From NCBI GenBank assembly GCA_029879725.1, contig JAOUPR010000004.1, forward strand, positions 1 to 64,000: DNA of 64,000 nucleotides, given 5' to 3'. This stretch comes from Gemmatimonadota bacterium. GTDB lineage: Bacteria > Gemmatimonadota > Gemmatimonadetes > Longimicrobiales > Gaopeijiaceae. Shown piece after piece: positions 18,554-53,392 of this stretch (the stretch's first letter is position 1; each line of letters starts with the position of its first letter). A program made the position numbers and the translations under genes. The notes below the pieces were generated by a model. It saw only the letters and a list, made by a program, of their open reading frames with translations. It made no database searches and was not told where the DNA came from.

Positions 18554-21319
18554 GTGCGGTTCAAGTTGGTGAACGCAGGAATGCTGGCGTGCGTGGCGGC
18601 GGTCCTAGGACTCCCCACGGCCGGGGTGGCGCAGGACGACGATGGGTCTTCTCGTGTACGGAGAGAGCCTCCGGACCCGTGGACGCTCGTGCGTCCGGAC
18701 GGGCGGGCCGTGCGGCGTGGGAGCCCCATCGAACTGGACGGATCCCTGGACGACGAGGCATGGGAGGCCGCGCCCGTCATGTCACAGTTCGTCCAGCGTG
18801 AGCCGGTGGAGGGGAGCGCGGCGGTGGAGGACACCCACGTGCGCGTCCTCTTCGACGACGAAGCCATCTGGATCGGCCTCCGCATGTACGACTCCGATCC
18901 CACCTCCATTGCCCGGCAACTGTATCGGCGGGACGAGCAGGGCCAGGCCGACTTCGTGGAGGTGGCGTTCGACCCCAACCTGGACCGGCGTACGGCGTAT
19001 CTCTTCGGCGTGAGCGCCGCCAACGTCCAGATCGACGAGTACCTCTTCGGCGACAAGGACGAGGACCGGGCGTGGGACGCCGTGTGGTCATCGGCGGTGA
19101 CGGTGGACGACGAGGGTTGGACCGCCGAGCTACGCATTCCGCTCTCCCAGATCCGCTACGAGGCGTCGACCGAGCCCCAGACCTGGGGATTCAACGTCCA
19201 TCGTTTCCGGGTACGGAGCGCCGAGCGGACCTTCCTCTCCCTCCTGTCCCGCCTGCGGCCGGGCACGGTGAGTCAGTTCGGGACGCTCGAAGGGATACGG
19301 GTCGACCGGGCGCCCCGGCGCGTGGAGGTACTCCCCTACACCCTGGCGAGCGTGCATGACGGACCCGCGGAAGCGGGGGATCCGTTCTTCGATGGATTCG
19401 CCACGGCGGGTCGGGTCGGTGTGGACGTGAGCTATGGGCTCGGGTCGGCCTTCACGCTGGACGCCACCATGAATCCCGACTTCGGGCAGGTCGAGGCGGA
19501 CCCCGCCGTGATCAACCTGACCGCGTTCGAGACGTTCTTCCGAGAGCAGCGTCCCTTCTTCGTGGAGGATTCCAAGGTCTTCGACTTCGGGCTTTCCGGG
19601 GGGCGTAACCAGCTCTTCTACAGCCGCAGGATCGGCCGGTCTCCCCACGGGAGGTCACCCGGCGAGGCCGCATTTTCGCACGTGCCGGACAACGCGACCA
19701 TCCTGGGTGCGGCCAAGGTGGCGGGACGCACGTCCGACGGTCTTTCGTTGGGGTTGCTGGCCGCCGTCACGGGCCGGGAACATGGCCAGGCGGTGCTCCC
19801 GGACGGATCCGAGATGGACGACTTCCTGGTGGAGCCGCGCGCGGAATTCGGTGTCCTGAGCCTCCAGCAGGACCTGAACGGCGGAGCGTCGCAGATCAGC
19901 GGGATGGCCACGGCCATGCGGCGCGACCTCCCGGCGGACGGATCGTTCGACTACCTGGCGTCGTCGGCGTTCAACGGGGGCGTGCGGTTCGAACACCAGT
20001 GGAACGACCGCGAGTGGGCGCTCTGGGGATTCCTGGCCGGAAGCCATGTGCGGGGTGATCCCGCGGCGATCACCCGGATCCAGTACGCCAGCAACCACTA
20101 CTTCCAGCGTCCCGACGCCACGCGGTACTCGGTGGACGGGACCGCCACGTCCATGAGCGGGATGGAGTGGAGGCTCCAGTTCGAGCGGCGTTCCGGTCGG
20201 CACTGGACCGGGGCCCTGTGGGCGGCCGAGGTCACCAAGGGCTTCGAGATCAACGACGTGGGATACTCGCAGAGCTCCGAGCGCCTGGACGGGGGCGCGC
20301 GCATCGCCTACCGGGAGATCGTGCCGGGGAGCGTGTTCAGGAACTACAACGTCAGCCTTTCCACCTTCCACAACTGGAGCCACGAGGCGCTGGACGAGGT
20401 CTGGTCGGTCGACTCGTGGCAGCGGGCGCGGTTGAGGGGTAGCTACTCGCTCAACGCGCACGGGCAGTTCCTCAACTATTGGAACATCCGCTCCCAGGCG
20501 TCCTACTCGCCCCAGGCCATGAGCCGCTCCGCCACGCGCGGGGGACCCATGATGGTCGACCCGGCCTCCGCGACCGTCAGCGTCAACGTGGGCAGCGACC
20601 GCCGAGGCCAGGTCAGCTACGGAGCGGGTGTGGAGTTCTCCGACGACCGCCTGGGGAGGGGACGCCGCACGGAGTTGAACGGGAACGTCCACATCAGACC
20701 CACGAGCAGGGTGGAGGTCTCGGTGGAGCCACGGTTCGAGGTGCAGAAGAGCGGGGCGCAGTACGTCACGGCCAGCTCCGCGGCATCCTTCGATCCCACG
20801 TACGGTACCCGTTACCTGTTCGCCGACCTGGACAGGAAGACGGTGTCCATGGAGACACGGGTGAACTGGACCTTCTCGTCCAGCCTCTCCCTCCAGGTGT
20901 TCGCACAGCCACTCCTGTCGTCGGGCGAATACCTTTCCTACAAACAGTTGACGGCCCCCGAGACGTACGATTTCCACGCCTTCACGGAAGGAACGGCCCG
21001 GATGACCGGGACGGGGGTGGTGTGCACCTCCGGGGAGATGTGTCTGGCCGACGGCGACCGGTACGTCGACGTGAACGGCGACGGACTTCCGGACTTCTCG
21101 TTCTCGGACAGGGACTTCAACGTCCGCTCCCTCATCGGGAACATGGTGCTGCGGTGGGAATACCGGCCCGGTTCCACCATCTTCCTGGTGTGGCAGCGAC
21201 AGCAGTCGGGAAGGGCGACGGTGGGTGATTTCGACCTCGGGCGCGACGTGGGGGCGCTCTTCGACCTGGAGCCCGACAATCGCTTCATCATCAAGGCGAA
21301 CTACTGGCTGGGGTTGTGA
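18554..21319 (+). CDS. DUF5916/CBM9-like secreted protein with C-terminal outer-membrane barrel
   Basis: 921 aa from GTG 18554, with GGAGAGG 6 bases upstream and a signal peptide ending near GVAQDDD. Residues ~50-230 form the carbohydrate-binding family 9-like domain (IELDGSLDDEAWEAAPV, VRVLFDDEAIWIGLRMYDS, DRRTAYLFGVSAANVQIDE). The rest is the DUF5916 region: FRVRSAERTFLSLLSRLRPG, MNPDFGQVEADPAVINL, EQRPFFVEDSKVFDFG and many alternating beta strands ending in FIIKANYWLGL, as expected of an outer-membrane barrel. The family is common in Gemmatimonadota and Bacteroidota, with unknown function, perhaps glycan or protease-linked uptake. A paralogue lies at 43483-45657. Confidence 0.85.
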   Translation: MRFKLVNAGMLACVAAVLGLPTAGVAQDDDGSSRVRREPPDPWTLVRPDGRAVRRGSPIELDGSLDDEAWEAAPVMSQFVQREPVEGSAAVEDTHVRVLFDDEAIWIGLRMYDSDPTSIARQLYRRDEQGQADFVEVAFDPNLDRRTAYLFGVSAANVQIDEYLFGDKDEDRAWDAVWSSAVTVDDEGWTAELRIPLSQIRYEASTEPQTWGFNVHRFRVRSAERTFLSLLSRLRPGTVSQFGTLEGIRVDRAPRRVEVLPYTLASVHDGPAEAGDPFFDGFATAGRVGVDVSYGLGSAFTLDATMNPDFGQVEADPAVINLTAFETFFREQRPFFVEDSKVFDFGLSGGRNQLFYSRRIGRSPHGRSPGEAAFSHVPDNATILGAAKVAGRTSDGLSLGLLAAVTGREHGQAVLPDGSEMDDFLVEPRAEFGVLSLQQDLNGGASQISGMATAMRRDLPADGSFDYLASSAFNGGVRFEHQWNDREWALWGFLAGSHVRGDPAAITRIQYASNHYFQRPDATRYSVDGTATSMSGMEWRLQFERRSGRHWTGALWAAEVTKGFEINDVGYSQSSERLDGGARIAYREIVPGSVFRNYNVSLSTFHNWSHEALDEVWSVDSWQRARLRGSYSLNAHGQFLNYWNIRSQASYSPQAMSRSATRGGPMMVDPASATVSVNVGSDRRGQVSYGAGVEFSDDRLGRGRRTELNGNVHIRPTSRVEVSVEPRFEVQKSGAQYVTASSAASFDPTYGTRYLFADLDRKTVSMETRVNWTFSSSLSLQVFAQPLLSSGEYLSYKQLTAPETYDFHAFTEGTARMTGTGVVCTSGEMCLADGDRYVDVNGDGLPDFSFSDRDFNVRSLIGNMVLRWEYRPGSTIFLVWQRQQSGRATVGDFDLGRDVGALFDLEPDNRFIIKANYWLGL

Positions 21320-52322: not shown

Positions 52323-52352
52323 GGGCCGGATCAGCGGATGCTGATCCGGCCC
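52323..52352. terminator. Strong bidirectional hairpin between lon and selD
   Basis: GGGCCGGATCAGC (52323-52335), loop GGAT, GCTGATCCGGCCC (52340-52352): a perfect 13-bp stem that also contains the last codons of selD. Both convergent genes end at it. There is no U-tract on either strand, so it probably blocks or stabilises both 3' ends. Confidence 0.6.
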
Positions 52353-53392
52353 CCTTCGCCCTCCACGATCTCGCCGATCACGGCCGCCGCGGGGGCGTTC
52401 CCCTCCAGCCGTCCCATCAGTGCGTCTACCCGGTCTTCCGGGACGCAGATCAGGAGCCCTCCCGACGTCTGTGCGTCGGCCAGGAGGAGCCGATCCACCT
52501 CCGCGATCCCCGCACCCCATTCGAGGTCGGGCTCCAGGTCGTCCAGGTTCCTCCGGCTCCCACCCGGAACGTGGCCCTCGGCGGCCAGCGTGCGGGCACC
52601 GCCGATGACGGGGATCCGCCCCACGTCCAGCGATGCTCCGACTCCGGAGGCGCGCAGGAGCGAACGAAGGTGCCCCAGGAGCCCGAAGCCGGTCACGTCC
52701 GTGGCCGCACGCACGCCCACCGCCGTCATGGCCTCGGAGGCTCCGCGGTTCAGCGTGGCCATGAACTCGACGGCGGTGGCGACCGTCTCCGCGGGCGCCG
52801 CACCGGCCTTCAACGCCGTGGTGATCACGCCCGTTCCCAGGGGCTTGGTGAGCACGATGCGGTCTCCCGGACGCGCTCCGGCGTTGGTGGCCATGTGGTC
52901 CGGATGCACCTCACCCACCACCACCATCCCGAACTTGGGCTCCGCGTCGTCGATGGAGTGGCCTCCCAGCACGGGGATCCCCGCCATCCGGGCCACCTCT
53001 CCACCTCCACGGAGGATGTCTTCGAGGATCCCCTCGCCGAGGAGCTTGCGGGGGAAGCCCACCAGGTTGAGCCCGAAGAGGGGACGGGCTCCCATGGCGT
53101 ACACGTCCGACAGCGCGTTGGCGGCGCCGATGCGTCCGAAATCGTAGGCGTCGTCCACCACCGGGGTGAAGAAATCGGCGGTGACCACCAGCGCCCGGTC
53201 CGCGGAGATACGATACACGGCGGCGTCGTCCCCGGTGGTCGCGTCCACCAGGGCGTTGGGATCCTCCACTGGAACCAGATGACGCAGAACCTGCGTCAAC
53301 TCGGACATGCCGAGCTTACAAGCTCAACCGGAACCGTGGGACAGCGTCGAGAGCCGGATCCTGGGCTTCTGATCCGTGGGCTCGTCCGTCAT
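52331..53392 (-). CDS. selD: Selenide, water dikinase SelD with catalytic selenocysteine (in-frame TGA)
   Basis: 353 residues including Sec, from ATG 53392 (GAGG 7 bases upstream). An ordinary ORF would start at ATG 53308, leaving only 325 aa and losing the conserved N-terminus. Reading the minus strand upstream from 53308 in frame gives HGSG, then TGA (53324-53326), then ACKLG. This matches the SelD active-site motif HGAG-(C/U)-G/A-C-K, so TGA is at the catalytic position (residue 23), with the essential Lys at residue 26. The rest is canonical SelD: TTGDDAAVY, FFTPVVDDAYDFGRIGAANA and GGHSIDDAEPKFG. It makes selenophosphate from selenide and ATP. A SECIS-like hairpin lies at 53281-53297. 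Confidence 0.93.
53281..53297 (-). promoter_or_regulatory. Candidate bacterial SECIS element in selD mRNA
   Basis: On the minus strand GACGCAG-GTT-CTGCGTC forms a perfect 7-bp stem with a 3-base GUU loop. The stem starts 27 bases after the selD TGA and the loop G is 34 bases from it. Bacterial SECIS elements lie within the ORF just downstream of the Sec UGA, with a G at the loop start. Nearby alternative stems (GAGCTTgtAAGCTC, CTCGGcatgtCCGAG) could compete. Confidence 0.6.

Follow-up and report, generated by a model that had tools for sequence, protein, structure and literature searches.

The minus-strand frame at positions 53392-52331 of the analyzed DNA (a 64,000-nucleotide stretch of a Gemmatimonadota genome, hereafter the window) almost certainly encodes a selenocysteine (Sec)-containing selenophosphate synthetase (SelD; selenide, water dikinase), a conclusion drawn from the reading frame itself, the UGA at the catalytic position, the full set of Sec-decoding genes in the same genome, and the conservation of both the UGA and a downstream RNA hairpin. 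Sec-containing SelD (TIGR00476) is a well-known selenoprotein, with which the present protein shares the domain, the arrangement of catalytic Sec and Lys, and the UGA at the Cys17 position; what is less ordinary here is the taxon (a Longimicrobiales-like member of Gemmatimonadota, with the motif HGSGUACK) and a two-part recoding element, the latter being the least expected part of the case. A literature search based on titles, abstracts, and term counts showed no report of selenoproteins of this order, and the present analysis places the Sec code in this little-studied group, where it is used for SelD and for two or more peroxiredoxin-like selenoproteins.

The selD gene (52331-53392, minus strand; 353 codons plus stop) runs from an ATG (53392-53390) through an in-frame TGA (53326-53324), read as Sec at residue 23, to a terminating TGA (52333-52331), and the peptide around the UGA reads MTDEPTDQKPRIRLSTLSHGSG-U-ACKLGMSELTQVLRHL. 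Its 353-residue translation matches the TIGR00476 SelD profile over residues 13-320 (E 1.1e-113, 379.5 bits versus a cut-off of 125), and since the match starts at residue 13, it begins upstream of the TGA. Sec23 occupies the position of the catalytic residue Cys17 in E. coli SelD, and Lys26 (codon 53317-53315, minus strand) that of Lys20; both residues fit the family rule of Cys or Sec followed three residues later by Lys in the N-terminal loop. The solved SelD structures 3u0o and 2yye align over nearly the full length (E 1.9e-72 and 5.3e-56, respectively), and in a phmmer comparison with the former, U and Lys26 fall on the Cys and the Lys of SHGAGCGCK, respectively. Column 23 (Cys, or U printed as C) and K26 were invariant in our sequence alignment. 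A Shine-Dalgarno-like GAGG (53403-53400, minus strand) sits 7 nt 5' of the ATG, and in several relatives the ATG is likewise preceded by GAGGAG or a similar sequence. The peptide, the ATG context, and the TGA recur alike in relatives with 60-70% protein identity, which argues that the frame is not a product of chance. The initial annotation had proposed a hidden N-terminus from ATG 53392 preceded by GAGG, an in-frame TGA at the SelD catalytic position, and an HGSG-TGA-ACK motif with Lys three residues after Sec, all of which were borne out; the alignment with Sec- and Cys-SelD that it had called for places U on the catalytic Cys column. The neighbours of selD in the window are a long Lon protease-like ORF (convergent) and a SirB1-like gene (divergent).

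It had further been claimed that the organism decodes UGA as Sec and needs selA, selB, and selC, and each of them was indeed found in one clear copy in the assembly, a 3.9-Mb draft of 184 contigs with 93.6% completeness. They comprise one selA gene (TIGR00474, 564.8 bits), one selB gene (TIGR00475, 349 bits), and one tRNA-Sec with the anticodon UCA (Rfam RF01852, 68.7 bits versus a gathering score of 47; also detected by ARAGORN), located on three contigs other than that of selD, which is adjacent to none of them; selA, selB, tRNA-Sec, and selD, which together define the Sec-decoding trait, thus occur in one genome. An ErpA/IscA-like gene (L001:2651-3112) lies directly downstream of selA and has Cys only; related families include Sec forms.

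Other UGA-Sec genes, a search for which had also been suggested, were sampled solely through family searches of this genome, and that for the AhpC/TSA family revealed two peroxiredoxin-like genes with in-frame TGA. One (L120:1402-1995, minus strand, contig C91) is peroxiredoxin-like with the sequence TPG-U-TVQ; 86 family genomes had a match to it, and the TGA is retained in almost every one. The other (L118:1336-1863, plus strand, contig C76) is an AhpC/TSA-family gene with FYRGHW-U-PWC, whose TGA is conserved in 71 family genomes; genes of this second type are located 1.6-5.4 kb from selD in the 16 genomes examined. Family searches of the draft genome did not detect YbbB (selenouridine synthase), revealed no SelW-like protein, or none with TGA, and showed formate-dehydrogenase-like genes without TGA in the matched stretches, Sec-containing FdhA not being found. 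The demand for selenophosphate therefore rests on the Sec proteins found, and selenophosphate probably serves Sec proteins here, SelD included; compared to E. coli SelD and the solved structures, this SelD carries Sec in place of Cys and belongs to a genome without detected YbbB. A codon-usage scan of the window and the surroundings of selA, selB, and tRNA-Sec gave no convincing further TGA-interrupted frame, and the selD site was not among its ten best in the window, implying that the scan is insensitive to a TGA near the start of a gene. Its top match, at 21317, resembles the normal end of one gene with the next gene behind it.

Two RNA hairpins follow the UGA. The model of the bacterial SECIS (bSECIS) element (PMC13188914) specifies an apical loop of 3-9 nt, a stem of 4-16 bp, a G in the first two loop positions, a distance of 16-37 nt from the UGA, and an energy of at most -7.5 kcal/mol. 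Hairpin 2 (GACGCAG-GUU-CUGCGUC; 53297-53281, minus strand, apical loop 53290-53288) agrees with this model in every respect (loop GUU with G first, 7 bp, 33 nt, -9.2 kcal/mol), whereas it departs from the usual picture in that its spacing is near the far limit (33 of 37 nt) and that a second conserved hairpin is placed between it and the UGA. A SECIS element had not figured in the reasoning of the initial annotation; the present analysis found one downstream of the TGA, namely hairpin 2. Among 75 Sec genes of the order, hairpin 2 is 98.7% paired versus 64.0% under synonymous recoding, a level that partly reflects the shared ancestry of these closely related sequences. Covariation was examined in 43 distinct Sec sequences from other groups of many phyla (by record name, Planomicrobium, Paenisporosarcina, Chloroflexi, Actinomycetota, Myxococcaceae, Verrucomicrobiales, Neomarinimicrobiota, and others), in which 32 cells were changed on both sides versus 9.6 in shuffles, and none of 500 shuffles reached this value. 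Pairing across these other groups amounts to 86.7% in Sec genes versus 53.7% in Cys homologues, and it falls to 36-57% when the partners are slid by 1-3 bases. Similarly, at least six of the seven pairs are present in 32 of 42 Sec-SelD genes (6.7 expected) and in one of 33 Cys-SelD genes (1.3 expected). Rfam showed no match at gathering score in the window, and near the TGA no SECIS family was matched even at E values up to 1. The free-energy z-score under synonymous recoding was weak for the window gene alone (z -0.58) because GC-rich codons fold anyway, and the analysis relied instead on covariation and on how well named helices pair.

Hairpin 1 (AGCUCGG-CAUGU-CCGAGUU; 53316-53298, minus strand) lies between the UGA and hairpin 2 and is the putative accessory part of the recoding element. 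It has two registers, CUCG...CGAG, as in the window gene, or GGUC...GACC. Synonymous recoding would predict this hairpin in 13.3 of the 75 Sec genes of the order, 8.8 of the 42 Sec genes from other groups, and 5.2 of the 33 Cys genes, and the observed numbers are 64, 29, and 8, respectively. These counts overstate the evidence, since the registers were picked after viewing the sequences, which are moreover not independent. A stronger argument than these counts against expectation comes from the comparison with Cys homologues; the two hairpins are found together in 24 of the 42 Sec-SelD genes from other groups (1.4 expected) versus none of the 33 Cys-SelD genes. It is quite possible, with a chance that we would put somewhat below even, that hairpin 1 arises as a side effect of constraints on codons and protein and that hairpin 2 alone matters for decoding: taken by itself, hairpin 1 does not fit the bSECIS model (there is no early G in the loop, and the loop is 14 nt from the UGA), it is missing from several Sec genes, and the second position from the bottom of its stem (+11/+27) is frequently A-C in the order, whereas its excess over expectation in Sec genes of other groups, set beside the Cys genes, speaks against such an origin. 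We consider it an evenly balanced proposition that bacterial Sec-SelD genes are recoded through a two-hairpin element conserved across phyla, in which a near hairpin in either register and a SelB-binding hairpin at a fixed distance would be combined and would shape the protein via wobble pairing. Mariotti et al. (PMC4561486) refer to a supplementary figure with a bacterial SECIS found in Sec-SelD genes, so the two-hairpin form may already have been noticed.

The hairpin pairing has a bearing on the protein sequence. Counting codons after the Sec codon, the wobble base of codon 10 (position +32) pairs with the first base of codon 14 (+42). GCG at codon 10 is accompanied by CGN (Arg) at codon 14, GCC by GGN (Gly), GCU by AGU (Ser), GCA by UGU (Cys), and AUG by CAU (His), with several exceptions to the overall scheme. 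As a part of the two-hairpin reading, and with the same balance of probability, the fourteenth residue after Sec would be Arg, Gly, Ser, Cys, or His depending on the partner base. Given this pairing, the RNA seems to determine, at least in part, the AQVLR stretch typical of Sec-SelD. A functional two-hairpin element would make Sec-SelD a clear example, across phyla, of a protein sequence imposed by RNA structure.

Based on the established biology of the family, the ribosome would arrive at UGA 53326, and SelB carrying Sec-tRNA-Sec would bind hairpin 2, with its loop 33 nt past the UGA, and insert Sec; hairpin 1 probably either brings the UGA closer to the SelB-binding hairpin or delays termination. 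In the mobile N-terminal loop of the product, Sec and Lys26 would help to make selenophosphate from selenide and ATP, which could then be used by SelA to produce the Sec-tRNA needed for translation of selD itself and of at least two peroxiredoxin-like selenoproteins.

The closest genomes with a name are MAGs of Gemmatimonadota, led by a Longimicrobiales bacterium with 68% protein identity. Across 154 genomes of the order, SelD was over the cut-off in 104 and SelB in 106, and most genomes with the former also had the latter, those without one being mostly without the other. A few genomes have SelD yet no full-length SelB (e.g., G041, G099, and G101), probably due to fragmented assemblies. At the Sec site, 76 of the 81 SelD loci read in the order have TGA and five have Cys (TGC). 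It is very improbable that the UGA is a real stop and that SelD starts at ATG 53308: the mechanical ORF list does contain exactly such a 325-residue ORF, and the initial annotation had rightly warned that standard ORF callers would yield a truncated protein, but Sec and Lys26 are both encoded upstream of 53308 and would be lost, as it had also pointed out, the residues encoded upstream of the UGA are conserved SelD sequence that can be aligned with solved SelD structures, and relatives keep TGA at the same codon, a plain stop with an unrelated N-terminus not having been encountered among them. Standard gene calls in the order therefore cut off the catalytic end of SelD. Readthrough of the UGA without Sec, either by near-cognate insertion or by reassignment to another amino acid, is known for insect SPS1-UGA genes (PMC4561486), but it is hardly credible here, as selA, selB, and tRNA-Sec are all present, UGA still terminates genes, including selD, and relatives without UGA have Cys, as expected of a Sec site. 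A sequencing or assembly error for TGC or TGT, which the draft state of the genome and the occurrence of Cys-SelD in the order might suggest, has a negligible probability, being contradicted by the same TGA in independent genomes and by the presence of an RNA hairpin typical of Sec genes.

Two of the Cys-SelD genes were found in genus g59, of which L036 retains the hairpin sequence UCGCGCAGGUGCUGCGCAA and L052 has lost it; this pattern, with the SECIS hairpin apparently kept as a fossil in L036, fits a recent Sec-to-Cys change, and Sec-to-Cys loss has been described for SelD (PMC1794560). In genus g2 (L099, L101, and L102), SelB is present, and SelD at the loci examined makes up the C-terminal portion of a long fusion protein with Cys (MRCGGCGSK), where sister genera have Sec-SelD.
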